A stretch of 64,000 nucleotides of DNA from Polyangia bacterium. GTDB taxonomy: Bacteria; Myxococcota_A; Polyangia; Fen-1088. Both the position numbers and the translations under genes were made by a program. Of this stretch, positions 33,805 to 61,286 are shown in pieces; within the stretch, counting starts at the first letter, position 1; each line of letters begins with the position of its first letter. Where the stretch lies: positions 248,001 through 312,000 of the forward strand of contig DATATI010000083.1 in assembly GCA_036268875.1 (NCBI GenBank), read 5' to 3'. The notes under the pieces are model-generated. The model had not been told where the DNA came from. It saw only the letters and a list, made by a program, of their open reading frames with translations, and ran no database searches.

Positions 33805-35274
33805 TTATCCCCCGGTGGGGACCCTCACCCCGACCCTCGGCTTTCTGTGGGCGGCTTCGTCGGGAGCGGGCTCGTATTCTACCGCCAGCCCGGCGTCGCC
33901 CCTGGTCACAGCGATGGCTTGGGTGGCTTCCTCTTTCAATATCCCCGCAGGCAGCCCGCAGAGAGCGCCGAAAATCAGCATGTAGATCGGCGGAAAGGCC
34001 GAGTTGACAATCAAGTCGAACAAAATGACGGCGCAATTGACCGTCAGCGCACTGAGGAGCAATCGGTCGGAGCGCGATTTGATTCTTCTGATGAACTTCG
34101 GCGCGCGCAGCACGGTGTACGCAAATGGAAAATAGTAGGAGAAGAGCCCGACCATGCCGTGGGCCGACAAGGTGATGATGACCGCGCCGTCGGGGATGGA
34201 TATCTGTCTCCCTGAATAGGAATCGTAGACAAGGTTTCTGCCCCAGCCTCCCCAGCCCCACCAAAGACGATGTTTGGTCAGGTCCATCATCAACTGTTCC
34301 ATGTTGAAGCGATAAAGCAATGAATCGGCACGCGCCCTCGATAGACCCGCGAAGAGATCGGCGATCGATTTCACGGGTATCACATCAGAGAATCGTAGGA
34401 CCGGGTAAATGAGGAAACAGAGGACGAAGCTGGATGCGACCATCAAGATTCGACGGGGAGCCGCCAGGCAAATCAGCGGAACGATCAGCAGGGCATAGAG
34501 GACAACGCCCGTAGACTTGCAGATGACCAAAACGACAAGAACGTAGAATGACGCCGCCTTGATCGAGACATGTGCCAAGCGCATGTGAACCCGAGCCATC
34601 GCCAGGATCATGAGGGTGCACGTCAAAACAAAGGAGGCCAGCGGCAACCCGTCCTTGAAGAAAACCGTGGGGCGGTAACCTCCCCACCGCAAGGTCATGT
34701 CGAATCGGCTGGCCTGGTACCCGTAGACCAACTGATTGAGATCCGGAAGCGTTCTGATCTCGATCAGGATCAAGGCCGAGTAGATCAGGACCGAGATTGC
34801 CAACAGGCGCGTGAGCGATTTCAAGTCGCGCGATGTCTTGAAAAGGATCCTCCCCAGGAAGAAGGCGGTCCAGGGAATGACGAAGAATTGGACGACCTCG
34901 CCTAAGAGATCTTTGAGGTCTTCTCCGGGAAGGACGACCCGACCGTAGTGAAGGGGGTCGCGGTTGGTAAGAAATGTCATGAAGGCGACCACGATCGAAA
35001 GCAGGAAAATGCCTTCGACTCCCCGAAGGGGATGCGAGCGCCGCAAATGGGAGCGACCAAAAATCACCACCAATATTCCCGCCACCAGTGGCGGAAGGGT
35101 CCACTTGGTCAGCCAACTTGGAGAGATGGGAAGGGCGTAAAGCGGGGGCAGGAACATCTCGGCGGCCAGCAGCGAGACCATCACGGCAACCGCGGGTCGG
35201 TAAGCTAGGAACAGCCCCAACATGACCAGGGGGAAGGTCCCCAGGAACAGCGGGGCCAAGAAATTGGCGTGCAT
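33805..35274 (-). CDS. Wzy/O-antigen ligase-like membrane protein
   Basis: 489-residue integral membrane protein with about ten to twelve hydrophobic segments (for example FPLVMLGLFLAYRPAVAVMV, FVLTCTLMILAMARVHM, FYVLVVLVICKSTGVVLYAL). The polar segment YRFNMEQLMMDLTKHRLWWG followed by WGGWGRN resembles the loop of O-antigen ligases and Wzy polymerases. The hydrophilic C-terminus is cytoplasmic. As the only such protein in a locus that also encodes a flippase and a Wzz-like protein, it is the best candidate for the polysaccharide polymerase. Codon and base use look less GC-rich than the left-hand genes. Sequence families of Wzy are too diverse for certainty. Confidence 0.75.
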   Translation of the reverse strand: MHANFLAPLFLGTFPLVMLGLFLAYRPAVAVMVSLLAAEMFLPPLYALPISPSWLTKWTLPPLVAGILVVIFGRSHLRRSHPLRGVEGIFLLSIVVAFMTFLTNRDPLHYGRVVLPGEDLKDLLGEVVQFFVIPWTAFFLGRILFKTSRDLKSLTRLLAISVLIYSALILIEIRTLPDLNQLVYGYQASRFDMTLRWGGYRPTVFFKDGLPLASFVLTCTLMILAMARVHMRLAHVSIKAASFYVLVVLVICKSTGVVLYALLIVPLICLAAPRRILMVASSFVLCFLIYPVLRFSDVIPVKSIADLFAGLSRARADSLLYRFNMEQLMMDLTKHRLWWGWGGWGRNLVYDSYSGRQISIPDGAVIITLSAHGMVGLFSYYFPFAYTVLRAPKFIRRIKSRSDRLLLSALTVNCAVILFDLIVNSAFPPIYMLIFGALCGLPAGILKEEATQAIAVTRGDAGLAVEYEPAPDEAAHRKPRVGVRVPTGG

Positions 35275-35360: not shown

Positions 35361-38048
35361 TCACTTCTGGATGACGTAGTAAAACGTTTCCGGCAGCAGC
35401 TTCAGCTCGCGCGCCGCGGTGAGAGAGAGGCTGCGGATGGGGTAGCCGTTGAAGTCCAGCGCGTTCACCTTGAGAGACGGGCCGTCGCTGCGCCTGAAGG
35501 TGATTCGCCCGCCCAGCTTCTTCACCACCAGGGGCGCGCCACCCACGGCCACGATCGAACGCAATCCTCGGCCTGGTGCCGACCAGCCGGTGTTGTTTTC
35601 CTCGCTCATCACCTGGAGCAGCATCTTGCCCGACCGGGCCAGCGGCGCGCCGTCGAGCGCGACCAGGAGCACCGAACCGTACTCGTTTTCGGCAGCGATG
35701 GTGATCTCGCCGAGCTTGATCGCTCCCGCTTGCCGCAGCAGACCGGTGGCCCCTTGCGCGGCGGGCGCGTCAATGGTGGCCACGCCGCGGCCCCAGTCCC
35801 AAAGCAGCTCGCCGGTCGCGCTCCGGACCGTCTTGGCGCGACGGTCGATGAGCCGGGACAAGTCGGTCATCCGGGAGGCGCCGCCTGAGGTCTCGGCGAT
35901 GTTCACCTCGACGCGGCCCGCGAGGAACGCGAGCGGATCGATGCTCTTTCCGTTGCCCCCCCCTCCCCACGCCTGGGCGGCGGAGGCTTTCGTCGGCAGG
36001 ATGCCCTTGGCCCGCAACGGGTCCAGGTTCACCGGCGCGGCCAGCGGCAACCCGTCCAACGCCAACAGGCTCGCCAGATCCACCTCGAGATGGACCACGG
36101 CGTCGGCGGTCTTGACCAGGCCCTGGCGAAACATGAGCGCCGCGGCCGGGAACTGTCCCATGGCAACCGGGTCGGTAACCATAAATTTTCCAATCTGCTG
36201 GGCCCAGTTATTTTCGCCTCCGGCGAAGAAGAAGAAGGCGTCCGAACCTTGCAGCGCCCCATAGGCGGCGGTCAGGACCGGCATGTCAGCGCGGTACCGA
36301 TTGGGGGGTGTCCAATTTATTTCGCTCACAGTGGACGGCTTGCCGTTGTAGGCGAGGTCCATCAGCGGAAGGTTGAACGACACTTCTCCGGGCTTTTCGC
36401 TCTCAAAACGAAGGGCCAATGCATCGTCGTACCGATCGCCCTTCGAAATCATATAAGTGGCCCGGTCGCCCTGGTGCGGGCCACCAAAGTACCCGTGGCG
36501 ATCGATGAAGTCGCAGCCGGCGTTGGACCATTTGTCGAGTGGCCCCAATATGCGCGCGTCGGCCGTGATCCAGTTCGATCCGGCGACGCTCCCTTTGAAC
36601 GAGAGCTCCTGTTTGAGGTAGCGGCGCATGTCGTCGAAATAGGTCCGCTGTAAATTGGCCAGGAACGTCGCGGTGTCCTGGGCGCGCGCATCGCGACGGC
36701 CGACGATTTCCCACAACGGCATGAAACCCGCCCGCCCGGTGGTCTCGTCATCACCGACGATCCGGGCGCCACCCCATCGAACGAACGTCGCCGCAAGCGA
36801 ACCGTTTTTCTTCTGCAACCAATCCCCGAACAGTTTCTCCAGAGTCTGCATTTGCGGCGCGGGAATGCTGCGATAGGGAACGAAGGTCCAGAAGAGAAGG
36901 CTGTCTTCGTTCACGATCTCGACGAAGGCCAACGTCGGATCTTGGGCCAGCGACTGGCCGGTGTAAGGGTTCGGCGCCTGCAACAGGGTCCGCCACCAGC
37001 GCTTCTGCATCTGCTGAAACGACCGGCTGAAGAACGAAAGCCCGAACGGGTGCCGGGCTCCATCGAACCCTTCGAAACCCGGACCGTCCTTGGGCTGCAG
37101 CCAAGCCGGAAAGTAGTCGGAGATCTCCAGGTAGATTCCCTGGCTCTTCAGGGCGGCGGTCAAAGCGTGGAGCCGGTCAAGCTTGGTCGGGTCGATGCTG
37201 CCGACATCCTCGTCCTTCCACAAAGGCCCATGAAAGCGAAGCATGTTGACGCCGAACTTGGCCAGGAATCGCGCCAGACGATCAAGCCCGGCTTGGTCGT
37301 ACTTGAGGACGTCGGGACCGGCGTTGACGGCCCAGAAGCGGACGGGCTGACCGGTCTTCTCGTGGATGAAGCTTTCGCCCTTGACCTTGATGAATCCACC
37401 ATCGCCGGCGCGCTTCTCGTTCATCCAGCGCAGATCAAGGGGAGAGACGCCGAATGGATCCAGATCCGGCTCGAACGGAAACCAACCGTCGGGTGCGACG
37501 CCCACCTTTTCGCCCGGCTTCAGCTTGCCTCGGGGCACGAAGCCCACGCTCGTGAGCAGGAAGCAGTCGAAGGCGGACGCCCCCTTGCTCTCGAGCAGCT
37601 CGATCCGCAGCGTGTGCTTTCCGCGCTTGAGCGACACCCCACCCAACTGCACCCAGTTGGCCTCGACGAATTTTTTCAGAACGACCGAATCAAGCAGAGC
37701 GACGTCGCGTCCGGAGGTGCGCCAAGGCTGATCATCGAATCGCCAGCGAAACGGCCCGTGTGACCAGAATTTTCGCGCATAAAACTGGTACGGGGCATCC
37801 TGGTCGACGGTGACGTCGTATTCCAGGAACAGCGCCTTGCCAGGATCGTTCGCGCCGATCCACCTTCCACCAGAAAGGGTCGCCGCCCCCCGAGGGTCGG
37901 GCGGCTGGAACGGGTTTTGGTCGGGAAAATTCGTGGCGCGAGGGTTTTCCGCTTCCCACCAAACCCATGTGCCCGGCGCGGCGCGCGTCTTTTGCGCAGA
38001 GGCGGCCAGGGCCAGGCCAACGACGACGACGACCAGGCTTCGTTTCAC
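35361..38048 (-). CDS. Secreted glycoside hydrolase (GH5-like TIM barrel) with N-terminal carbohydrate-binding region
   Basis: 895 residues with a signal peptide (LVVVVVGLALAASAQ). Residues about 25-180 look like a beta-sandwich carbohydrate-binding module (TWVWWEAENPRATNF). A clan GH-A-like barrel follows: FWAVNAGPDVLKYDQAGLD, NMLRFHGPLWKDED, IYLEISDYFPAWLQP, and FVEIVNEDSLLFW with the probable acid/base Glu at about residue 380. The last 250 residues are beta-rich. Its place within the exopolysaccharide locus suggests that it trims, releases or degrades that polymer. The exact GH family is not assigned, and the nucleophile is not pinned down. Confidence 0.75.
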   Translation of the reverse strand: MKRSLVVVVVGLALAASAQKTRAAPGTWVWWEAENPRATNFPDQNPFQPPDPRGAATLSGGRWIGANDPGKALFLEYDVTVDQDAPYQFYARKFWSHGPFRWRFDDQPWRTSGRDVALLDSVVLKKFVEANWVQLGGVSLKRGKHTLRIELLESKGASAFDCFLLTSVGFVPRGKLKPGEKVGVAPDGWFPFEPDLDPFGVSPLDLRWMNEKRAGDGGFIKVKGESFIHEKTGQPVRFWAVNAGPDVLKYDQAGLDRLARFLAKFGVNMLRFHGPLWKDEDVGSIDPTKLDRLHALTAALKSQGIYLEISDYFPAWLQPKDGPGFEGFDGARHPFGLSFFSRSFQQMQKRWWRTLLQAPNPYTGQSLAQDPTLAFVEIVNEDSLLFWTFVPYRSIPAPQMQTLEKLFGDWLQKKNGSLAATFVRWGGARIVGDDETTGRAGFMPLWEIVGRRDARAQDTATFLANLQRTYFDDMRRYLKQELSFKGSVAGSNWITADARILGPLDKWSNAGCDFIDRHGYFGGPHQGDRATYMISKGDRYDDALALRFESEKPGEVSFNLPLMDLAYNGKPSTVSEINWTPPNRYRADMPVLTAAYGALQGSDAFFFFAGGENNWAQQIGKFMVTDPVAMGQFPAAALMFRQGLVKTADAVVHLEVDLASLLALDGLPLAAPVNLDPLRAKGILPTKASAAQAWGGGGNGKSIDPLAFLAGRVEVNIAETSGGASRMTDLSRLIDRRAKTVRSATGELLWDWGRGVATIDAPAAQGATGLLRQAGAIKLGEITIAAENEYGSVLLVALDGAPLARSGKMLLQVMSEENNTGWSAPGRGLRSIVAVGGAPLVVKKLGGRITFRRSDGPSLKVNALDFNGYPIRSLSLTAARELKLLPETFYYVIQK

Positions 38049-38099: not shown

Positions 38100-39374
38100 T
38101 CAGGGTGTTCCGACGGATCGACTGACGCGGGAAGTCCCCGCGAACAACACGTAGAGCCAGAGCTGGCGCTGGTGAAAAGACTCAATGAAGGAACCTGGCC
38201 TGCTGTAGAAAGGCGCGCGATCGGCCCAGCGGCCACCGAACTCGACGGTCAAGCTATCGGAGATGCGGTGGCGAACCGGCACCGCCACCGAAGCCGCGAC
38301 TTCGTCGGGGTAATACGTCGTATCTCCTGAGGTGGTGGCGTGCATCTGCAGGGTGGAGAAAAAATAGCCCTCAAACCCCACCGACCAATCCGGGGGACAA
38401 AGCAAAGACAGGATGACCATCGCGGTGCCTCGCGGCGTCGCGGCTCCCAGGATCGGATCGACGTAGTAGTCGACCGACGCTCCCAACATCGCTTGCAGCA
38501 CCGTCCCACGCAGGCTGAGGAGGCGTTGATCCAGCGTCACCTTTCCGATCGGTGTCACGGAGCTGGGCGTGTCGATCGGATAGGCGCTCGACAGGTGGGT
38601 CAGGGCGATCCCCGCTCGAAGCTCAAGCGACGCGTGCCGCGCCAAGGAGGTTCGCCACCCCACCCCCGGGATCACGGTGAGACCAGTCACCGAGTGCACC
38701 ATCAAAGGCTGGCCGGCGACGGCGGGCGCCGACTGCAACGCCGAGATGTATTGCGTTTCGAAACCAGTCGACAGCGTCAGTTCATCCAAGGCGGAGAGGC
38801 GAAACGCAACGCCGGGGGTGACGGTGACGGTGGTGAGATGGGGAAGAACGAAGGTCGCGGCGGGATCTTCGTCGACGGGACGATATTGAAATACGCGCAA
38901 AGCGAGCTCGAACCTGACGGTTCGGCTGGCCCGTGCTTGGGCGCTGGCGTCCACCGTGGTGGAGAAGATCCGCGGCACCACGGCCAGCGTGGCCTGGTTG
39001 GTGCCGAGGACGACGGGCAGGTACGTGTAGTCCGTCGCCCCCTCGAGCACCGAGGCGGTGCCCTGGAACACCAGGCGTGGCGTCGGGTGAGAGTCTGCCG
39101 CCAAGGTCCAGGTGTGGAGGTACAACGGGGCTGCGTCCACGGACTTCGTTTCGCGTGAAAAAATGCGGAGACTGTAACCGGCGCGAACCTGGAAATCTCC
39201 GCCCCGATAGAGCACGTCACCGCCAGGCGTCAGGACGCCGACCAAGGAAGGTTGTGGAGGCAACCCGGGGGAGACCGGCGCCTCACCGCCGCGCGTCTCC
39301 ACCGACACCGATCCGCCGGCGTCGAATTGGCCCGCGGCTAAGAGCAACATCAGAGCCGGAGCGAGGCCGAGCAT
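38100..39374 (-). CDS. Outer-membrane beta-barrel protein (Wzp-type candidate)
   Basis: 424 residues with a signal sequence (LGLAPALMLLLAAGQ). The mature protein shows alternating hydrophobic/polar strands of about ten residues throughout (QVRAGYSLRIFSR, RLVFQGTASVLEGATDYTYL, VRFELALRVFQYRP, ASLELRAGIALTHLS, WSVGFEGYFFSTLQMHATT), as in an outer-membrane barrel. It lies 7 bp downstream of the short OPX gene. In Myxococcus, periplasmic OPX proteins without their own outer-membrane part are paired with separate barrel proteins (WzpX/S/B); gene order and size here fit that arrangement. The function is inferred from context. Confidence 0.78.
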   Translation of the reverse strand: MLGLAPALMLLLAAGQFDAGGSVSVETRGGEAPVSPGLPPQPSLVGVLTPGGDVLYRGGDFQVRAGYSLRIFSRETKSVDAAPLYLHTWTLAADSHPTPRLVFQGTASVLEGATDYTYLPVVLGTNQATLAVVPRIFSTTVDASAQARASRTVRFELALRVFQYRPVDEDPAATFVLPHLTTVTVTPGVAFRLSALDELTLSTGFETQYISALQSAPAVAGQPLMVHSVTGLTVIPGVGWRTSLARHASLELRAGIALTHLSSAYPIDTPSSVTPIGKVTLDQRLLSLRGTVLQAMLGASVDYYVDPILGAATPRGTAMVILSLLCPPDWSVGFEGYFFSTLQMHATTSGDTTYYPDEVAASVAVPVRHRISDSLTVEFGGRWADRAPFYSRPGSFIESFHQRQLWLYVLFAGTSRVSRSVGTP

Positions 39375-39381
39375 CGGACGG

Positions 39382-39975
39382 CTACTCCACGACGACGACG
39401 TCTCCGTCGCGAAGCCGGAAGCGGCTCACGACCGGGGTGGGGGCCGTAATCTCGGCGGCGCGAAACCGCACCGGCAGTCCTCCCTCGCTGCGAACGACGA
39501 AGATTCGATCGCGATTGGCGAACTCCGTCAGCCAGCCCGCCGCGGCCAGGGCGGCGGCGACGCTGCGGTCGCGGGTCAGCTCATAGGTCGCGGGCGATTT
39601 GACCTCGCCGACCACGTTCACCCGGATCGGCCCGATCCGAGCGAGGGAAACCGCCACCACCGGCCTCACCACCAGCGTCGCCAAACGGGCCCGCAACTCT
39701 TCCGTGACCTGTTGGGGCGACCGACCGGCAACCTCGACCCCTCCCACCGTCGGCAACAGAATGCCCCCATCGTCGCGAACCACGAATTCGCCGGAGAGCG
39801 CCGTCTGATTCAGCACCGAGATCACGATCACGTCTCGTGGGTGGATGATCCCCTCCCCGCTCGACGCTACCGCGGGCAAGTTGGCTGCCCAAACGAAGGG
39901 CTTTTCAGCGGCGCAGCTGGCGACGAAAATGAAAGACAGGAAGTAAGCGAAATGAGCGGTGGCGAAGCGTTTCAT
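39382..39975 (-). CDS. Short polysaccharide export (OPX/Wza-like) lipoprotein
   Basis: 197 residues. The signal peptide ends in a lipobox (FIFVASC). A Poly_export domain follows (IHPRDVIVISVLNQTALSGEF ... ILLPTVGGVEVAGRSPQ, LVVRPVVAVSLARIGPIRV), then one SLBB-type repeat (VNVVGEVKSPATYELTR). It ends at DGDVVVVE, so there is no C-terminal alpha-barrel helix like that of E. coli Wza. Hence it cannot span the outer membrane by itself. It lies between the FHA-Wzz gene and the beta-barrel gene. The ATG is used rather than a TTG two codons earlier. Confidence 0.9.
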   Translation of the reverse strand: MKRFATAHFAYFLSFIFVASCAAEKPFVWAANLPAVASSGEGIIHPRDVIVISVLNQTALSGEFVVRDDGGILLPTVGGVEVAGRSPQQVTEELRARLATLVVRPVVAVSLARIGPIRVNVVGEVKSPATYELTRDRSVAAALAAAGWLTEFANRDRIFVVRSEGGLPVRFRAAEITAPTPVVSRFRLRDGDVVVVE

Positions 39976-40008
39976 ATTCAAGCTGTCGACGTGGCGAGCA
40001 ATGACCGG

Positions 40009-41892
40009 TCAGTGCCTGGAGATCGTGCGAGTGGCATTCAAGTTGGACAACGCCTGCGTAAACATCCGGCGGCCCCCCTTGGCAACGGCCAGCCCCAAAG
40101 CCATGAACAACCCCAGAAACAGGCCCGCCGCCACTCGAACCACCCCGGTCATCACAGGCCCGACCTTGACGATCTGCGCCGGCGAAACGATCTGGTACCG
40201 GGATTCGGTCGAGACCCTTTCGAGGTTGAATTGCAACTCGGCCTTTTTGAGCTGCTCGAAGAGCTGGCCGTGCAACTGGGTGGTCGCTTCCTGCATGTGC
40301 GTGAGCCGCTGGACACCGGCCTGCACGCGAGGCAGATCGCCGACCATGGACGAAACGCGGCCCAGCTTCTGCTCCGTGTCGGCCAGACTGCTGCGGGCCG
40401 CTGCCAGCTGCGACTCCAACAGTGGTCCTTCCAACCGCCGCTTCTCTTCTTTTAACTCCAGGACTTCAGGATGCCCTTCCGCCAGGCCCCGGGCACGCGC
40501 TTCGTCCAGCTTGCGATCGAGGTTGGCCAGAGAATCGCGATAGATCGGGGACGAGTGGAACCGCTGCGCCGCCGGAGCGCTCTCGGGCGACGCGCCACCC
40601 ACGGGCAACGGAGCATCCACCTGTGCGCGGCGCTGAGCATCCACCTCGGCTTGCAGCCGGCGAACCTGCGCCACGAGGTCTGAGCGCCGCGTCTCCAGCG
40701 CGAATCGGCTGTCCAGCATGGGTTTTTCCCCTTCGGGAAGACGATCGGAATTCTTTTGAAGGAATTGCATTTGTTCGTCGCTGATTTTCTTCATGTCGCC
40801 TTCGGCGACCTTGAGCTGCTCACGGAGGAACTCGGCTTGTGCCGTGAACACCCGAATGGCGCGCGCGGTCTCTGATTGCTTGTAGTTCTCGAGATGCGTT
40901 CGCAGGATCTCCACTGGGTTCAGCGACAACGGAGCAATCAGAGTTTCCCGATAGGTGGCCTTGTAGACGTTGTCGGGCTTCGCCTCCATCCGCAGACGCT
41001 CGGCGAGGGCCTTCACCGCACCGTCGGTGGGTGTCCGTCCGAGGACCTTCTTCAGCGTCTCGGCCACCAAATCCGGCTGAACGAACCCCGTCTCCGCGTC
41101 GGCGAACAGCACTTCCTGGTCGTCGCTCGACGGAGGGCGGCTCCACGATGGCCGCGAATCAAAAGGGTTCACCTTGGCCTGGGGTTGCAGCTTCATCACG
41201 CACGCTGCTTCGCGCCGCGGGGGCAGAACAAATACTGACATCAATCCCAGCAACGCTCCCATGCCGGCCAAAAGACGGAGCAGGAACGCATTCTGCTCAA
41301 GAAACTTATAGGTCTTGGCAGCTCGTCCGAAGATTTCTTCCAGAGATGGCCCGTCGTCCTCGTTGCGACGAGCGGTCGCCAGCGCCGTGCCGGCGGCGGA
41401 AATCCGTACCGGCGCCGGCGTATATCGAGCCAAGGTATTGCTGCGCACGACGGTCGGGATCCCGGCCGGGAGGATCATCATCGTCGCGTCTATGCGCCGC
41501 TCGACAAGGAACTTGAACTCGACTTGGCCGAGGGCAATGCGATCGCCGCTGCGAAGGCGCACACGGCTGACACGCCGCCCGTCCACGAAGGTTCCGTTGC
41601 TGGAGCCGAGATCTTCCAACTCGAACCCCTGGCTTCCGTTGATGAGTCGGGCGTGCCGCGCGGAAACCGAGGCGTCCGGGAGGGAAATATCCGCATCGAC
41701 GGCCCGGCCAAGGTAAATGGTGTTGTGTATGAGTGGGTAACCTCGGCCAGCGTGCGCACCGCCCACGCCCAGCAGGAACGCCTCCGGCTCACCGGAGGGA
41801 ACGGAGCGATCGAGCTCTGCGTCGAGGCCCGAATTCGGCTGAGAAGCCTTGTCGCCGCCGGCGCCATCCTTGTTCGACGGGTGGACAGCCAT
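40009..41892 (-). CDS. FHA domain - Wzz/Wzc-like polysaccharide co-polymerase
   Basis: 627 residues with a domain order I do not know from other systems. Residues 50-130 are a cytoplasmic FHA (phosphothreonine-binding) domain with the core residues in place: GR at 62-63, SARH at 77-80, LGSSNGT at 95-101. After a linker come membrane helix 1 (about 203-223), a Wzz-like periplasmic region with a long coiled coil (280-570; AIRVFTAQAEFLREQLKV, ARGLAEGHPEVLELKEEKRR), and membrane helix 2 (about 580-602) in a PCP-type context. The C-terminus is short, with no Walker motifs or tyrosine cluster, so no BY-kinase is attached. It lies 149 bp downstream of a Ser/Thr kinase gene and 33 bp upstream of the OPX gene. 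Confidence 0.88.
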   Translation of the reverse strand: MAVHPSNKDGAGGDKASQPNSGLDAELDRSVPSGEPEAFLLGVGGAHAGRGYPLIHNTIYLGRAVDADISLPDASVSARHARLINGSQGFELEDLGSSNGTFVDGRRVSRVRLRSGDRIALGQVEFKFLVERRIDATMMILPAGIPTVVRSNTLARYTPAPVRISAAGTALATARRNEDDGPSLEEIFGRAAKTYKFLEQNAFLLRLLAGMGALLGLMSVFVLPPRREAACVMKLQPQAKVNPFDSRPSWSRPPSSDDQEVLFADAETGFVQPDLVAETLKKVLGRTPTDGAVKALAERLRMEAKPDNVYKATYRETLIAPLSLNPVEILRTHLENYKQSETARAIRVFTAQAEFLREQLKVAEGDMKKISDEQMQFLQKNSDRLPEGEKPMLDSRFALETRRSDLVAQVRRLQAEVDAQRRAQVDAPLPVGGASPESAPAAQRFHSSPIYRDSLANLDRKLDEARARGLAEGHPEVLELKEEKRRLEGPLLESQLAAARSSLADTEQKLGRVSSMVGDLPRVQAGVQRLTHMQEATTQLHGQLFEQLKKAELQFNLERVSTESRYQIVSPAQIVKVGPVMTGVVRVAAGLFLGLFMALGLAVAKGGRRMFTQALSNLNATRTISRH

Positions 41893-42041
41893 TTGAAGGT
41901 CCGTGAAAATAACATGACCATGCTCCCCGGTCCAGGCTTCGAACCCCTGTTTGATGCGTCAAATGGCCTGTGGCGATTCCACTTTGTGAGGCACCCGCGA
42001 CAGTCGGCACGGCGCGGCGATGGCCAGTTGCCGCCCGCGGT

Positions 42042-43421
42042 TTAGCCTCGACGTTGCCGCCGCGCCCGATCGAAAAGCGTCCTGAATGTGCCGGCGACAC
42101 TGGCCTTCGCTGCCTTGATTTGCGTCGCCAGCGCGCGTCGGGGCCGCGTGACTCTCGCCGTATCGGCGTCTTCATGACCGCCTTGCCCTTGCTCCGGATG
42201 GTCCGACGCGCGCGACTGGACTTCGGCCGATTCCTTCGCTCCGGCGGCGAGTACCGCTTCGATAAGTCGATGGCGCTCGGCCAACCTGTCGCCCAGGTTC
42301 CGCCGAACCCATTCTCCAACGCCCGCGGGCGATTCGATCAGGTTGTTCGCCAGCGCCGACGTGCGGAGCGCCGCCGCCATGGCACTGGCCACCAAGAAGC
42401 GTCCCTCCGGAGAGCGGTTCATGGCCTGCATGCAGACATCGTCGAGGCAAGCCGGGCCGCCGTGTGCGCTCGGCGGACTGACCTTCATCCGCAGGACCTT
42501 CGTGGCTACCTCATCGAACGTGTCTGCGGTGAAAGGCTGCCGCCCCGTCAGCGCCGTCCATAACAGCACGCCCAGCGAATAGAGATCGGATCGCGAATCG
42601 AGTTTCTCGCCGCGGAATTGTTCAGGCGGCATGTAGGAGGGCTTGCACAGCCCCAAGGTCTGGGCCTGGTTCGAAATGGCGGTGAGACGGGCGCTGCCAA
42701 AGTCCGACAGCCGCGTCACTCCGTCGACGCCTACCAGGACGTTCTCGGGAGAGATGTCGCAGTGAACCAGACCCAGCCATCTTCCCTTCGCATCAGTCGC
42801 ATCGTGCAACGCCTGCAACGCCGTCAGCGTTTCGAGTACGATGGCCACCACGACCGCTGGCGAAGGTCGATTTTCCCCAACCATCATCTCGGCCAAGCAC
42901 GCGCCGTCCACGTACTCGAAGATAAGGAACCGTTGGCCGTCATAGATTCCCGTGTCGATGACGGTTTGCGCGTTGGGGTGGCGGAACAGCGAACCGACCC
43001 TCACTTCGCGGCGAAAGGAAGCCTCCGCCAGATCCTGATGAAGCGTGTGCTGCCTGATAACCTTCAGTGTCAAGAGACGGTTGGGGTCCTCTCCCTTCAC
43101 TTTGCGACAGACGTAGACCGATCCGATGGCTCCGCGCGCGATGCGTGCCGCCACCTCATACTGCCCAACCCGAAACGGAGCAGCCGACGCCCCGGCTCCG
43201 GCTCCTTTGGCCGATGGTTGCACCGCGCCAGTCGACGTCTCAATCACCGTTTGTGGCAGCGCCGGGGACGTCCGGTCGGGCGACAAGGCGCTTGACTTTG
43301 ACGCCTCCTGCCCTGATGGGGCGACTCCGTTGGCGGCACCCTCCCCCTCGAGAGAAACCGGACTTCCGGCTTCCGGAGAGTCAAGCGACGACACTGATGA
43401 CGCATTTTCCACAGGAGCCAT
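42042..43421 (-). CDS. Ser/Thr protein kinase, soluble, HCD variant
   Basis: 459 residues. A Ser/Ala/Pro-rich N-terminus (1-85) precedes a Hanks-type kinase domain (about 88-345): glycine loop RIARGAIGSVYV, ATP lysine K120 in LTLKVIRQH, catalytic loop VHCDISPENVLV (D222, N227), DFG at 240-242 in LSDFGSAR, and MPPEQF. The usual Arg of HRD is Cys (C221), a non-RD kinase, so activation may not need activation-loop phosphorylation. The C-terminal 110 residues are basic and lack a membrane helix or sensor domain. Being directly upstream of the FHA co-polymerase gene, it is the obvious candidate to phosphorylate that system. Confidence 0.92.
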   Translation of the reverse strand: MAPVENASSVSSLDSPEAGSPVSLEGEGAANGVAPSGQEASKSSALSPDRTSPALPQTVIETSTGAVQPSAKGAGAGASAAPFRVGQYEVAARIARGAIGSVYVCRKVKGEDPNRLLTLKVIRQHTLHQDLAEASFRREVRVGSLFRHPNAQTVIDTGIYDGQRFLIFEYVDGACLAEMMVGENRPSPAVVVAIVLETLTALQALHDATDAKGRWLGLVHCDISPENVLVGVDGVTRLSDFGSARLTAISNQAQTLGLCKPSYMPPEQFRGEKLDSRSDLYSLGVLLWTALTGRQPFTADTFDEVATKVLRMKVSPPSAHGGPACLDDVCMQAMNRSPEGRFLVASAMAAALRTSALANNLIESPAGVGEWVRRNLGDRLAERHRLIEAVLAAGAKESAEVQSRASDHPEQGQGGHEDADTARVTRPRRALATQIKAAKASVAGTFRTLFDRARRQRRG

Positions 43422-43591: not shown

Positions 43592-45016
43592 ATGCTGTTC
43601 TCCGAGCCTGTCTTTGTTTTCTTTTTTCTTCCCGCGGTCCTGCTCGCGTACTTCAGCCTAGGCGAGAAAAGTCGCGACACCGTCCTGCTCGCTTCCAGTC
43701 TGATCTTCTACGCGTGGGGAGAACACGGGTACGTCCTGGTCCTCGTCGCATCAATCTTCCTCAACTGGCTCTGCGGGTTGGGCGCGGCCCCTGGCCCAGG
43801 GAAAAATAGATCACGCGGCAGTCTCCTCGTCGCCATCACGGGCAACCTGCTGCTTCTCATTTTTTTCAAATACACGAACTTCCTTGTCGCCAACCTGAAC
43901 GTCCTGCTCCTGCGCCTGCACAGTCCGCTGCTTGCCGTGCGCCCCATCCACTTGCCGATCGGAATCTCTTTCTTCGCATTCCAAGGAATGTCCTACGTCA
44001 TTGACGTCTATCGCGGCACCGTCCCACCGCAGAAGAGCCTCCTCAAGATCGCCATGTACAAGTCCTTCTTTCCCCAGCTGATCGCCGGTCCCATCGTTCG
44101 CTACGTCGACGTCAAACCTCAAATCGAACGCCGGACGATCGGCTTTGACGATTTCGCGGCCGGCATCCAAAGATTCATTGTTGGTCTCGCAAAGAAGATG
44201 ATCGTTGCCAACGTGGTGGCCAGGCCCACCGACGCGATCTTCGCGCTGCCGGTAAGCCAACTCAGCGCTTCACTGGCCTGGGTTGCGGTGATCGGATATG
44301 CCCTGCAAATCTATTTCGACTTCTCGGCATATTCCGATATGGCGATAGGACTGGGACGGATGTTTGGTTTTCGCTTCTTGGAGAACTTCAACTACCCGTA
44401 CATCGCGACCAGCATGACCGAGTTTTGGCGTCGCTGGCACATCTCGCTGTCCTCGTGGTTTCGTGACTATCTCTACATACCCCTGGGCGGCAATCGGGTC
44501 TCGGTGGGCCGCCAGTACGCCAATTTGATGGTGGTCTTCGCGCTGTGCGGGCTGTGGCATGGCGCGAGTTGGAACTTCGTGATCTGGGGTCTTTTCCACG
44601 GCGTATTTCTCACCCTTGAACGGCTTGCGGCGCGAAAGCAGATCTCGATGCCCTTTCGCAGCTTGCGTCACGTTTACGTTATTTTGGTCGTCCTCGTGAG
44701 CTGGGTCTTTTTCCGCGCGGAGACAGCGGCGTTGGCGCTGTCGTTCATTGGCGCGATGGTCGGCATGACTCATCACGGACAGGTCATGCCCGGGCTGCGC
44801 GTGTTCGTCGACACCGAAGTGGTCACTGTGGTGATCCTCGGGATCATCGGTTCGACCCCCGTGCTGCCGGCTATCAAGCGGCGATGGGAACGTTCCGACT
44901 GGCTCGGTCAATGGCGCGAAGCGGCCGGATTGCTCGGACTGATGGGGGTCTTCGTTTACTGCGTGATGCTGATGGCGGCGGGCTCTTACAGCCCATTCAT
45001 CTACTTTCGGTTCTAA
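43592..45016 (+). CDS. MBOAT-family O-acyltransferase (AlgI-like)
   Basis: 474-residue multispanning membrane protein of the MBOAT family, as AlgI, which moves acetyl groups across the inner membrane for polysaccharide O-acetylation. It has MLFSEPVFVFFFLPAVLLAY at the N-terminus, SFFPQLIAGPIVRYVDV, FWRRWHISLSSWFRDYLYIP and LCGLWHGASWNFVIWG, the last holding the invariant catalytic His near residue 324. About eleven hydrophobic segments are seen. It is divergent from the kinase gene and directly abuts the AlgJ/AlgX-like gene (no base between stop and start). Confidence 0.95.
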   Translation: MLFSEPVFVFFFLPAVLLAYFSLGEKSRDTVLLASSLIFYAWGEHGYVLVLVASIFLNWLCGLGAAPGPGKNRSRGSLLVAITGNLLLLIFFKYTNFLVANLNVLLLRLHSPLLAVRPIHLPIGISFFAFQGMSYVIDVYRGTVPPQKSLLKIAMYKSFFPQLIAGPIVRYVDVKPQIERRTIGFDDFAAGIQRFIVGLAKKMIVANVVARPTDAIFALPVSQLSASLAWVAVIGYALQIYFDFSAYSDMAIGLGRMFGFRFLENFNYPYIATSMTEFWRRWHISLSSWFRDYLYIPLGGNRVSVGRQYANLMVVFALCGLWHGASWNFVIWGLFHGVFLTLERLAARKQISMPFRSLRHVYVILVVLVSWVFFRAETAALALSFIGAMVGMTHHGQVMPGLRVFVDTEVVTVVILGIIGSTPVLPAIKRRWERSDWLGQWREAAGLLGLMGVFVYCVMLMAAGSYSPFIYFRF

Positions 45017-46198
45017 ATGGACGCACCCGCGACAACGGCCCGCTCCAGACGATGGAACCGTGCGTTGACCTGGGTCTTCCTGGCGGCATTGGTGGCTCCC
45101 ACCCTCGATCTGATCTTCAAATGGGATCCTTATCCGTCTCCGCTGCGCGACCCGGTGCCTTTCCCCTCGTTTCGCGCCACGGCATCGTTGCGGCGTCTTC
45201 CGGGACAGCTGGCCTGGTATCTGAAGGAGAGCATGGGATTTCGGGGATCGTTGGTCCGGACCCGCGCCTCAATCGCCTGGAGCCTGGGTGTCTCGCCCGC
45301 GCCGGAGTCAGTGGTTCGCGCCGATCCATGGCTGTTTCTTCGGACAGAACGAGTCATCGACGACTTCCGGCGTGTCGAGCCCTTCACGGAGGCTCAATTG
45401 CAAGGGTGGCGATCGACCTTCGAGGCCCGAGCGGCCTGGCTGGCCAAGAGGGGGAGCCATTACCTCATCGTCGTCGCCCCCAACAAAGAGACTGTCTATG
45501 CCGACGCCGTTCCGCGCTGGTTCACGCGCCTGCCCGGGCCCTCGCGGCTGGAGCAGCTGAAGCAGTACCTGGCGACAACGACGAATCTCGATTTCCTCGA
45601 TCTGTCCGCCACCCTCATGGCACACAAGACCGACGCGAGGCTTTACCACTTCACCGATACGCATTGGAACGACAACGGCGCCTTCGTCGCCTACCGAGCC
45701 ATTTCAGAACGCCTGGAGCAATGGTTCCCGCGGATCCGGACGCTCGATGCGCGAGACCTGACTCACGAAATGCAACTGACCCCCGGCGGCGACCTCGCCA
45801 GGATGTGCGGTCTCAAGCGCGATCGACTCGAGCCTCAAGAATGGCTTTCCCTTTCGCCCACGGTCATTCCCTCGACGTTCGCGGACGGATCGCCAATCAC
45901 CTTCGAGCGGATGGACGTGCGCGGGAGGCAGCTCTTCGAAACCCGCAGTCCCTCTGGCGAAGTTCCCTCGGCGACGATCCTTCGGGATTCTTTCGGCGAG
46001 GCGCTGATCCCGTACCTGTCGCGGCACTTTCAGACCGCCACCTGGATCTGGACGTATGACTTTCCGTCCGAATTAATCGATGCGCAGCGTCCCCGGCTGG
46101 TGATTGAGGAGCTCGTCGAGCGAAAATTGATGGTGCTCGAGCCCACGAATTCGGCGACTGTCGAGTCATCGGAGGGCAACACCGCCTCGGATCAGTAA
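45017..46198 (+). CDS. AlgJ/AlgX-like polysaccharide O-acetyltransferase
   Basis: 393 residues with one N-terminal membrane helix (ALTWVFLAALVAPTLDLIF) and a periplasmic SGNH-type domain. The family triad is visible: Asp-x-His in FTDTHWNDNGAF (about residues 213-216) and the nucleophile Ser in ILRDSFGEAL (about 323). It would take the acetyl group delivered by the MBOAT partner encoded immediately upstream and put it on the nascent polymer. Its last seven bases overlap the end of the convergent priming-transferase gene. Confidence 0.9.
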   Translation: MDAPATTARSRRWNRALTWVFLAALVAPTLDLIFKWDPYPSPLRDPVPFPSFRATASLRRLPGQLAWYLKESMGFRGSLVRTRASIAWSLGVSPAPESVVRADPWLFLRTERVIDDFRRVEPFTEAQLQGWRSTFEARAAWLAKRGSHYLIVVAPNKETVYADAVPRWFTRLPGPSRLEQLKQYLATTTNLDFLDLSATLMAHKTDARLYHFTDTHWNDNGAFVAYRAISERLEQWFPRIRTLDARDLTHEMQLTPGGDLARMCGLKRDRLEPQEWLSLSPTVIPSTFADGSPITFERMDVRGRQLFETRSPSGEVPSATILRDSFGEALIPYLSRHFQTATWIWTYDFPSELIDAQRPRLVIEELVERKLMVLEPTNSATVESSEGNTASDQ

Positions 46199-47592
46199 GT
46201 GTTGCGGTTCTTTCTCCACTCGATGGCCGTCTTTAGAATGATTTTCACGTCCCACAGGAGAGTCCAGTTCTGGATGTACTCCAGGTCGTGCTCAACGCGC
46301 TTGGCCATTCGGGAGACCTCGGGTGTCTCACCGCGCCAGCCATTCACCTGCGCCCATCCCGTGATGCCCGGTTTGACCTTGTGTCGCAGCATGTACCCAT
46401 GAATCAACGCTCGGTATTCTTCGTTATGTGCAACAGCGTGCGGACGCGGACCGACGATCGACATTTCGCCACGCAACACTTGAAAGAACTGCGGCAATTC
46501 ATCCAGCGACGTTCGCCGCAGGAATCGCCCAAAACGGGTGACGCGCGGATCGTTGCGAGATGCCTGCCGGATCTCATCGCCGTCTTCGCAGACCGTCATC
46601 GTCCTGAATTTCAAGACCCGGATCTGTTTGCCGTTAAGACCGTAGCGTCGTTGTCGGAAGAAGATGGGGCCCTTGGACGTCAGCTTGATTCCAATCGCCA
46701 CAAACAAGATCGGAATTGCGATCAAGGCAATAATCAGCGAGCCTGCAACCAGGTCTTCGAGCCGCTTGAGAGCACCGGTCACGCCCTGAAAAGGCGTCTC
46801 GTAGATGCTGACCACCGGAAGGTTTCCAAGTTGGGTCCAATGCGCGTGCCGCAGATCAAAGGTGAAGAAATCGGCGGCCAGGTAAACGCTGGCGGTCGTA
46901 TCGGCCAGTTCGCGCACGATCTGGCCGATCCGCAACTCGGCGCGCAACGGCAGCCCGATGTAAACGATGTCGATGGCCCCGTTGCGGCAAGCCCGGATCA
47001 GTTCGCTGGAGCTGCCACCATAAGAGGGGCCGGAACGGCCGAACGGGTGGCGTCGCTCTTCGGAGCGGTCGTCGAAGACACCGACGATGTCCATCCCCAG
47101 CCACGGCCGCTCCTTGATTCGTTCGCACAGCGTTTCGGAACCGGCGGTGGCGCCGAGGATACCGACCCGTTTGATGTTGCGGCCTTGCAGGCGAAGATAC
47201 GAAACGATGAGCCGACCAAGAAGGCGCCACCCGCAGATGAACAGCGGGGCGAGCAAGAACCAGCCGAACGAAACAACCCGCGAGTAGTGAGTCGAGGTCT
47301 TGGAGGCGAAGGCGAGCAAGATAAGGATCGGAAAAACAACCACCCAAGCGGCAACCGCCTGCCGCAGCTCTCGCCCGAGGCGCTCAGAACGCCACGATCG
47401 ATATAGCCCCATCAACTGGCCGGCGATCCCGAACATCAGCACTCCCAGTGCGCTGGCGTTCGTCATCTCTAGATTCCAGTATTGAGAATAGGCCTGACAA
47501 GCCAGCCAATGAGTGGCAACGATCATCAGTCCGTCGATGACGCGCTGAATGCCCCCCAGCAAGTCATCATCTCTTAACGACACGCCTCGCAT
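46192..47592 (-). CDS. Polyprenyl-phosphate sugar phosphotransferase (priming enzyme, WcaJ/WbaP type)
   Basis: 466 residues from the ATG; a GTG one codon earlier is possible. Four N-terminal membrane helices, a CoA-binding-like Rossmann region (KRVGILGATAGSETLCERI), a fifth helix (LIIALIAIPILFVAIGIKL) and the C-terminal catalytic domain: FFRQRRYGLNGKQIRVLKFRTM, SLDELPQFFQVLRGEMSIVG, GPRPHAVAHNEEYR and HKVKPGITGWAQVNGWRGET. It transfers the first sugar-1-phosphate to undecaprenyl phosphate and so starts repeat-unit synthesis on the inner membrane. A 17-bp tandem duplication covers its start region. Confidence 0.96.
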   Translation of the reverse strand: MRGVSLRDDDLLGGIQRVIDGLMIVATHWLACQAYSQYWNLEMTNASALGVLMFGIAGQLMGLYRSWRSERLGRELRQAVAAWVVVFPILILLAFASKTSTHYSRVVSFGWFLLAPLFICGWRLLGRLIVSYLRLQGRNIKRVGILGATAGSETLCERIKERPWLGMDIVGVFDDRSEERRHPFGRSGPSYGGSSSELIRACRNGAIDIVYIGLPLRAELRIGQIVRELADTTASVYLAADFFTFDLRHAHWTQLGNLPVVSIYETPFQGVTGALKRLEDLVAGSLIIALIAIPILFVAIGIKLTSKGPIFFRQRRYGLNGKQIRVLKFRTMTVCEDGDEIRQASRNDPRVTRFGRFLRRTSLDELPQFFQVLRGEMSIVGPRPHAVAHNEEYRALIHGYMLRHKVKPGITGWAQVNGWRGETPEVSRMAKRVEHDLEYIQNWTLLWDVKIILKTAIEWRKNRNTY

Positions 47593-47614
47593 CACAGCAC
47601 GCCTCGAATCACAC
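47581..47614. repeat. 17-bp tandem near-duplicate at a start codon
   Basis: Units 47581-47597 and 47598-47614 differ at two positions (CACGCCTCGCATCACAG / CACGCCTCGAATCACAC). The copies cover the first codons and immediate upstream of the priming-transferase gene; the upstream copy lost the ATG. Confidence 0.7.
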
Positions 47615-54733: not shown

Positions 54734-55777
54734 ATGCTCATCTGCACCTACGAAGACCGTCCGGCAGATTTCATTGGGGTGAAACTGTTGGTGGCCAGTC
54801 TCGGACGACACCTTCCCGACGTGCCCATCCACGTCGCATGCCCTGCTCCGGACGAGGGCCTGAGAAAATGGCTTCTGGGCCGACCCAATGTGGTCTTGGA
54901 CACCGCGGCGGCCCCGGGCCTTCGGGGTTGGAACGTGAAGGCCGGTCTCCTTTTGCGCCTGATTGACGCTGGACATCGGGAGGTGATCTGGATCGATTCT
55001 GACGTGATCGTCGCGGGAGATTTTCGGCCTCTCATTGCCGACACCACTTCGGTCATCGTCACTCAGGAGAAATGCTGGAATGGACCGAAGGACAACATGC
55101 TGCGCACGCGCGGGTGGAACCTGCCGGTGGGGCGAAAACTACCCGATCTCATCAATAGCGCCTTCCTGCGCGTCACCAGCGAGCACCGTCCCCTCTTGCT
55201 CGCCTGGATCGCTTTGATGAAGACCGAGATCTACCAGGAAGCCCAGACCATGCCTTTCGAACGCCGGCCAATTCACCTGATCTCCGATCAGGACGTGCTC
55301 GGCGCGGTGCTCGGTTCGCAGGAGTTCGCTCACTTGCCGGTGCGGTTCCTCGCCCGAGGGCGGGACATCATTCACGATTTCCAAGGCGGCTATTCAGCGT
55401 CTGATCGGATCAGCAACCTGTTCCGCGCCATGCCTCCTCTGGTTCACGCGCAAGGGCACAAGCCGTGGCGGTTCCCAGACAAGCCCCGACTCATTCGCGA
55501 GCCGCGCCACTATTACCGCTTCACCCAAGTCGAGAGCTCACCGTACTCTTATCTGGCACGACAGTACCGGCATGCCCTGCCGGAATTCCCGGCATTTTTC
55601 GAGGTGCGCTCGCTGCCAGGGAAAATGCTGGGCGCGCTGTCTCTTCACAATCTCCATATACACGGCTTGCCGCACGCGTTGCTGGACAGAGGGGTGGACC
55701 GGATTGATCGGCTCAAAGCGTTGGCAAGGCGCTTCGTGGGATTCGGCAGGCGGATTCGGCAAGCGTTCGATCTGTGA
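54734..55777 (+). CDS. GT-A-type nucleotide-sugar transferase-like protein
   Basis: 347 residues. LICTYEDRPADFIGVKLLVA at the N-terminus, HREVIWIDSDVIVAGDFRPL with a DSD metal motif near residue 97, LINSAFLRVTSEHRP and HLISDQDVLGAVLGS suggest a GT-A glycosyltransferase (glycosyltransferase-8/77-like layout) of the hexosyl type. I cannot name the family exactly. The frame is open upstream but without ribosome site or conserved sequence. It overlaps the flippase gene by 4 bp (GTGA), so both are expressed together. Confidence 0.8.
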   Translation: MLICTYEDRPADFIGVKLLVASLGRHLPDVPIHVACPAPDEGLRKWLLGRPNVVLDTAAAPGLRGWNVKAGLLLRLIDAGHREVIWIDSDVIVAGDFRPLIADTTSVIVTQEKCWNGPKDNMLRTRGWNLPVGRKLPDLINSAFLRVTSEHRPLLLAWIALMKTEIYQEAQTMPFERRPIHLISDQDVLGAVLGSQEFAHLPVRFLARGRDIIHDFQGGYSASDRISNLFRAMPPLVHAQGHKPWRFPDKPRLIREPRHYYRFTQVESSPYSYLARQYRHALPEFPAFFEVRSLPGKMLGALSLHNLHIHGLPHALLDRGVDRIDRLKALARRFVGFGRRIRQAFDL

Positions 55778-57120
55778 CGACACAAATGGCCTCGACCGGA
55801 CTGCCGTGGCGCGTTTTGCGGGGCTCCCTCTTCGAAATGGCCGGCTACGGCGCCCAGCAGCTTTTGCGGATCGCCGGCAACCTGATATTGACGCGCTTGC
55901 TGTATCCGGCCGCCTTCGGCCAGGCAACGATTGTTTGGACGATTTCGATCGGGCTCGTGATGCTGTCCGACGTCGCCATCCAGCCGTGTGTCGTGCAGAG
56001 CAAACGCGGAGACGATCCGGCGTTCCTCGACACGGCGTTCACGCTCCAGGTGCTGCGCGGGATGGCCTTGGGATTGGTCATGGTCGTACTGGCAAAGCCC
56101 GCTGCCTGGTTTTATCGCGAGCCGGCGCTGGAGATCCTGATTTACATCGGCGCAGCACACCCCATCGTCAATGGACTGCATTCGACGTCGGTGTTCACCC
56201 TGCGCCGGCACCTCAAGCTCGGATGGTTAAACGGGCTGGATCTCACCTCGAGCGTCATCGGGACGATCTCGATGGTGATGCTGGCGCGCGTTTACCCGAC
56301 ACCGCGCTCTCTGATCATCGGCACCGTCTTTGGGTCTCTCATCGGCGCGCTGGTGTCGCATCTTCTGCCCGTGCCTTATCGGAACCGCTTTCGATGGGAC
56401 AAAGAAGCGGTTCAGGAGATTGGCCGGTTCGGACGCTGGGTGTTTGGCAGCAGCGCCGCCACATTCCTCGGTACCCAGAGCGATCGGCTTCTTCTCGGTC
56501 GATTTCTGGGGACGGCCTGGCTGGGCGTTTATGGCATCGCCGTGAATCTGTCCGACATGCTGTCGCTGCTGATTCTGCGCATCATCAGCGGCGTTCTTTA
56601 TCCGGTGTTAAGCGATGTTGGTCGAAAGCCGGATCAAGACCTGTCACACTTCTTCTACCGTCTGCGGCTTCGCTTGGATGCGCTGAGTATGACCGCCACC
56701 GGGCTGCTGGCGGGGACCGGCGGCTGGTTGGTTCACGCCTTGTGGGACGAGCGCTACGCCAATGCAGCCTGGATCGTCCAGGTGCTTTGCATCCGCGTGG
56801 CCATCGGGCTCATCGTCGCGCCGACCGAGACCTGTCTCTTTGCGCTCGGTCAAACCCGCACTCTCTTCGCGCGCAGCTTTACGCGGCTGGTGGGTACGCT
56901 GATTGCGATCCCCGCCGGTTGGTATCTGGGGGGGGTCAAGGGCGTCATCTGGGCGACCGTGGTCGCGGAGCTGCCAACGATATTGGCCGTCTGGCCGAAA
57001 AGCCACGCTCTGGGCATCCTTCGCATTCGGCGCGAGCTGCTGGCGGTGGCGATCTTCATTTGTGCCACTGCGCTGGGACATGTCGTTGCTGCTTGGCTAC
57101 CGCAGGTTCACCTTCGCTGA
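55774..57120 (+). CDS. Polysaccharide flippase (Wzx-type)
   Basis: 448 residues, GTG start overlapping the previous stop. About twelve to fourteen hydrophobic segments with the MOP/polysaccharide-transporter pattern: RIAGNLILTRLLYPAAFGQA, FLGTQSDRLLLGRFLGTAWL and GVYGIAVNLSDMLSLLILRI. It would move undecaprenyl-linked repeat units across the inner membrane for Wzy-dependent polymerisation. It converges on the WecG/TagA gene with a 10-bp gap. Confidence 0.93.
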   Translation: MTTQMASTGLPWRVLRGSLFEMAGYGAQQLLRIAGNLILTRLLYPAAFGQATIVWTISIGLVMLSDVAIQPCVVQSKRGDDPAFLDTAFTLQVLRGMALGLVMVVLAKPAAWFYREPALEILIYIGAAHPIVNGLHSTSVFTLRRHLKLGWLNGLDLTSSVIGTISMVMLARVYPTPRSLIIGTVFGSLIGALVSHLLPVPYRNRFRWDKEAVQEIGRFGRWVFGSSAATFLGTQSDRLLLGRFLGTAWLGVYGIAVNLSDMLSLLILRIISGVLYPVLSDVGRKPDQDLSHFFYRLRLRLDALSMTATGLLAGTGGWLVHALWDERYANAAWIVQVLCIRVAIGLIVAPTETCLFALGQTRTLFARSFTRLVGTLIAIPAGWYLGGVKGVIWATVVAELPTILAVWPKSHALGILRIRRELLAVAIFICATALGHVVAAWLPQVHLR

Positions 57121-61247: not shown

Positions 61248-61286
61248 CGCGCGTAGACCTTGACCGGTTATGTGCGCCGGGTGACC

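Follow-up and report, generated by a model that had tools for sequence, protein, structure and literature searches.

Polysaccharide co-polymerases (PCPs) are membrane proteins with a part in determining how long a secreted sugar polymer becomes and in exporting it. Polysaccharide assembly by co-polymerases of the PCP-2 type is thought to need either cycles of tyrosine phosphorylation or a pseudokinase scaffold. PCP-2a Wzc, PCP-2b CapA-CapB and ExoC-BtkA are two-helix PCPs of the Wzx/Wzy pathway whose assembly is controlled by phosphorylation, with a BY kinase fused or adjacent. EpsV-EcpK and HfsA-HfsB consist of a PCP-2 without a BY domain and a BY pseudokinase, and EpsV/EcpK has been proposed to act independently of phosphorylation (PMC12004946). 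Control of a Wzx/Wzy polysaccharide by a Ser/Thr kinase is described for Stk1-CcpS-CpsB of Streptococcus suis, which works indirectly via a tyrosine phosphatase, retains the BY kinase CpsD and is reported with no mention of FHA (PMC10148854). In the PknG/PknB and GarA/OdhI systems, an FHA substrate is recruited by a phosphorylated kinase segment, in PknG/OdhI through autophosphorylated threonines of the kinase, and is phosphorylated on a threonine beside its FHA domain (PMC8546545). The FHA domain of Bdellovibrio DgcB binds the phosphorylated tail of its own protein, KpTSIV (PMC6733907). No description of FHA domains in co-polymerases was found in the open-access full-text literature.

The stretch of DNA analysed here, a 64,000-nucleotide window from a Polyangia bacterium, encodes a protein with this combination, the 627-aa Wzz-type co-polymerase P0001 (40009..41892, minus strand), recognized with Pfam, NCBIfam, a family profile and a structural model. 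Its parts follow in the order FHA domain, linker of about 50 residues modelled at low confidence, first membrane helix (about aa 202-222, 41227..41289, minus strand), long helical periplasmic part, second membrane helix (about aa 579-603, 40084..40158, minus strand) and a final stretch of about 25 residues; both membrane helices are seen in the sequence and as helices in the model. The FHA domain spans aa 37-131 (41500..41784, minus strand) as a fold in the AF2 model with pLDDT mostly >94, and aa 60-122 match Pfam FHA with an E value of 4e-20. All core residues are in place (G62-R63, S77/H80, S97-S98-N99-G100-T101), and the fold together with the phosphothreonine-contact residues R63, S77 and N99 makes it a predicted phosphothreonine binder. 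By sequence, the nearest solved FHA is that of DgcB, and by fold it is GarA in complex with PknB. The initial annotation had described an intact N-terminal FHA with GR, SxxH and SSNGT residues in a co-polymerase with two membrane helices, a periplasmic coiled coil and no BY-kinase motif, and this architecture was borne out: P0001 contains no Walker A motif, and its two long periplasmic helices (326-382 and 390-426) appear in a full-length model of moderate confidence with a low overall pTM of 0.38. As in EpsV and HfsA-HfsB, the PCP thus carries no BY domain.

The co-polymerase assignment is weak by public single models: TIGR03007 covers aa 492-603 with an E value of 3e-12, and Pfam Wzz PF02706, which is a convenient rather than a defining criterion in this divergent family, gave no match to P0001 at E 0.1. 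A profile built from the PCP part of P0001 and its relatives matched the solved PslE (1e-9) and Wzc (1.5e-8). The top 50 Foldseek matches of the full-length model were FHA matches only with no PCP folds, so PCP membership is based on the profile search, by which P0001 is clearly a predicted PCP.

Directly upstream on the same strand, 149 bp away, lies the gene of the Hanks-type Ser/Thr kinase P0002 (459 aa; 42042..43421, minus strand; Pkinase E 4e-32), in agreement with the initial annotation. The catalytic Lys, HxD-N and DFG are all intact and P0002 is predicted to be active; its catalytic loop, HCDISPEN, is of the non-RD kind with Cys where HRD has Arg. The genome (6.15 Mb) contains about 90 kinase matches. 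The kinase had also been called soluble, which is correct for the window copy as it has no membrane helix, but does not extend to its orthologs, most of which carry a C-terminal membrane helix; that the basic C-terminus of P0002 can bind the membrane is speculation. In a tree that also included 20 further kinases, most of them encoded by these genomes, 15 kinases linked to FHA-PCP genes form one clade (support 97/95.5), in which H[CGHQ]D replaces HRD throughout. A second Ser/Thr kinase of the window (61260-63095, plus strand) is unrelated and has an ordinary HRD loop.

The two genes sit in what is by sequence a complete Wzx/Wzy exopolysaccharide cluster. Downstream of P0001 are an EpsY-like short OPX export protein (39382..39981, minus strand) with Poly_export and SLBB domains and a sub-threshold match to the EpsY model (E 6e-37), what is probably an outer-membrane beta-barrel at the place of EpsX (38100..39374, minus strand), which lies next to OPX in relatives too and weakly resembles the M. 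xanthus barrel beside EpsV, and a probable Wzy polymerase (33805..35274, minus strand) that matches Wzy_C below cut-off (E 5e-6) and recurs in relatives. On the other side are an initiating phosphoglycosyltransferase (46192..47595, minus strand; Bac_transf E 3e-66), also found in most FHA-PCP clusters, glycosyltransferases, a Wzx-type flippase (55774..57120, plus strand; Polysacc_synt_3 E 4e-45) and a WecG-type transferase. In its phosphoglycosyltransferase, short OPX, barrel and PCP the cluster is similar to the eps set of M. xanthus, whose EPS cluster likewise contains the first three. An MBOAT O-acyltransferase and, after it, an AlgX-like SGNH protein (43592-46198, plus strand) suggest that the polymer is O-acetylated. 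Between Wzy and the barrel, a secreted 895-aa protein (35361-38048, minus strand) has no Pfam or NCBIfam match and resembles a glycoside hydrolase by eye, and an 846-aa PilZ and PEGA protein near the cluster (29801-32341, plus strand) is a possible c-di-GMP input.

Across the class, which was searched completely, 26 out of 318 genomes encode a member of the FHA-PCP clade. The FHA domain is at the same place in nearly all members; it was lost in two (G005, G010), and its core residues were lost in seven PCP copies. The window FHA and most relatives retain the phosphothreonine-contact residues, so that an FHA unable to bind phosphothreonine, which would have spoken against the initial annotation, is not indicated at the sequence level. 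In a search of 379 genomes of the phylum, the PCPs found beyond this clade carried no FHA; of 80 loci matched by FHA in many different phyla, only two had a PCP, both of them FHA-PCP members already found in the class searches. A plasmid search returned FHA-domain matches only, and a database scan with the single P0001 protein as query found nothing. Second FHA-PCP copies are present in G296 (L202 8968-10992), where the 18 kb contig piece lacks a kinase, and in G114 (L201 56-2080). At L069 (1-770) the PCP frame enters unrelated sequence near its C-terminal end, possibly a contig mis-join.

Four copies (in G005, G010, G009 and G021), within the clade without intact FHA and without kinase, are fusions of PCP and a Wza-like OPX in a single stop-free frame (L063 1422-3983, L066 8012-10585, L067 4600-7206, L068 8809-11322). 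A lipobox-like segment lies between the fused parts, with GGCAHE in two of the four. The pattern looks as though loss of the switch was accompanied by the gain of a physical link; this is a correlation only.

We then considered whether kinase and FHA-PCP are inherited together. The kinase ortholog is adjacent or one gene off in 12 of the 16 intact-FHA loci with enough flank (binomial about 4e-5 with an assumed per-locus chance of 0.25). Kinase ortholog and PCP are on separate contigs in G123, and the contigs of G124 and G129 break before linkage can be read. Recurrence at 12/16 loci and the monophyly of the kinases rule out chance neighbours. At the level of genomes, the kinase ortholog is present in 15 of 18 with intact FHA and in none of six with lost or degenerate FHA (Fisher 6e-4), a comparison in which the six genomes represent only two independent branches, so that a phylogeny-aware test cannot reach significance; the absence of the kinase where the FHA binding residues were lost is therefore supportive but not decisive. 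Two of the three intact-FHA genomes missing the kinase are about 70% complete. G295 was scored as positive, yet its best match retains the usual HRD loop and is not one of the 15 members of the clade; with G295 scored as negative the figure becomes 14/18, and the conclusion stands. The co-occurrence across relatives on which the initial annotation depended was thus recovered.

Both partners share a threonine motif. In P0001, the disordered linker between FHA and the first membrane helix contains a candidate phosphothreonine motif, DATMMI (T137; 41473..41490, minus strand), which is kept in relatives: A136-T137 is invariant in the four nearest relatives, in a linker that is variable over much of its length, and most PCPs of the clade have [DENS]-[AS]-T-[MVI]-x-[LIV] directly after the FHA. 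Of the 26 PCPs, 12 have T[MVI]x[ILV] in the linker, versus 3 of 71 unrelated FHA proteins, and of the 15 linked kinases 11 have S[KRQM]T[MITS]x[LI] in the tail, versus 0 of 21 background kinases (0.02 expected by shuffling); the patterns were written after viewing the sequences, so their p-values are optimistic. The tail motif, for example FSKTMILP, PSRTIFLT, LSRTIVLP or ASQTMMLR, is cytoplasmic and mostly 12-49 residues ahead of the membrane helix. In G128 its Thr is replaced by Ala, and the tail of G226 has no motif. The traits of GarA-type docking, a kinase Thr segment and a Thr beside the FHA, are both present in most relatives, and the tail of the window kinase offers only a weak match, DADTARV (42150..42170, minus strand). 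The case for the window therefore leans on the relatives, as P0002 itself is atypical, soluble and missing the canonical tail motif.

A strict joint loss of linker motif and FHA was considered and dropped, since L067, L068, L070 and L071 retain the motif despite a degraded FHA and no detectable kinase. The motif is also missing or displaced despite intact FHA in L075, L077, L078 and L201. The AF2 model shows a disordered linker with T137 outside the FHA cleft, and is uninformative on the phosphorylated state. By analogy, a Thr motif on both partners would be what an FHA reads in GarA/PknG and in DgcB, where the own-tail Thr has a hydrophobic +3 residue like the PCP and kinase motifs. In GarA/OdhI, a soluble inhibitor of metabolism, the Thr precedes the FHA, whereas in the membrane co-polymerase it follows the FHA, and DgcB differs in that its effector is a diguanylate cyclase and its tail is N-terminal (PMC6733907).

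Taken together, the domain architecture, intact residues, linkage, co-inheritance, kinase absence with FHA loss and the Thr motif on both partners lead us to propose that kinase and FHA-PCP probably form a dedicated phosphothreonine control module for the Wzx/Wzy exopolysaccharide machine. No phosphatase gene was identified, which counts against this proposal. In such a module, the kinase would autophosphorylate and the FHA on the cytoplasmic face of the PCP would dock on the phosphorylated kinase tail. The kinase would then phosphorylate the membrane-near linker at T137 in DATMMI, and the phospho-linker would bind either its own FHA or the FHA of an adjacent subunit of the PCP ring, changing ring assembly and with it polymerisation and export. 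We infer that T137 is phosphorylated and recognized by FHA, in cis or in trans, and that ring and polymer are affected. The module would replace the BY-kinase tyrosine-tail cycle of Wzc. The initial annotation had suggested just such a Ser/Thr switch read by FHA in place of tyrosine cycling; linkage, co-inheritance, intact residues and the Thr motif favour it, with phosphorylation, reading and replacement as its conjectural part, and on sequence evidence it appears to explain the data best at present, the more so given the motif and co-inheritance results.

The absence of a tyrosine kinase might be only apparent. M. xanthus EpsV, also without BY domain, uses a distantly encoded EcpK (PMC12004946), and an FHA-PCP could likewise be partnered by a distant BY kinase or pseudokinase, with FHA and Ser/Thr kinase as an added layer. 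Most FHA-PCP genomes indeed encode BY kinases elsewhere, mostly fused to Wzc-size proteins. However, no BY kinase was found fused or adjacent at any FHA-PCP locus examined, where in contrast to Wzc, CapA-CapB and ExoC-BtkA there are FHA and a Hanks kinase, and G003 (92% complete) has no BY kinase anywhere at the threshold used. Sequence search of FHA-PCP genomes for EcpK homologs returned only one distant match, on another contig of G266, unlike the situation of EpsV/EcpK; the query was picked in M. xanthus from where it lies, from its sequence features and from its basic C-terminus rather than by name, and a strongly diverged pseudokinase would escape. The BY-kinase partner that could have contradicted the initial annotation thus did not emerge nearby, and we consider a distant one improbable.

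It is somewhat easier to imagine, if still unlikely, that the FHA is solely a recruitment platform tying down the kinase via its phosphorylated tail, with the true substrate another cluster protein such as the phosphoglycosyltransferase or Wzy, and the linker Thr incidental. The tight association of the tail motif with the linked kinases would fit, as would the position of the phosphoglycosyltransferase gene, which separates the kinase gene from the PCP gene in G003 and in four f6 genomes, but the enrichment of the Thr motif in the PCP linker too, at a fixed place just after FHA, and the constancy of A136-T137 among the four closest relatives in a largely variable linker argue for the linker as a target. 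Kinases and FHA domains are abundant enough in these genomes that both might be common Myxococcota parts lying side by side without a functional link; this we regard as very improbable, because the kinases are a single clade of orthologs and not a random assortment, and were kept over deep divergence, the two partners carry matching motifs and the kinase is absent where the FHA was lost.

If the proposed control module is correct, it may extend to a fourth mode of PCP-2 control after the fused BY kinase, the separate BY kinase and the BY pseudokinase, to which we give somewhat under an even chance, in which a mostly membrane-anchored Hanks kinase acts on threonines read by FHA in the PCP ring, in cis or between subunits, to drive assembly and disassembly of the complex without tyrosine phosphorylation. 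These results suggest that a group of Myxococcota controls polymer assembly by threonine instead of the usual tyrosine phosphorylation. If the co-polymerase reads phosphothreonine, the logic of cycling, not the chemistry of tyrosine, would be what matters. Eukaryote-like kinases are abundant in Myxococcota, mostly without known targets, and the proposed module would, if true, tie them to a concrete machine with named residues to mutate.
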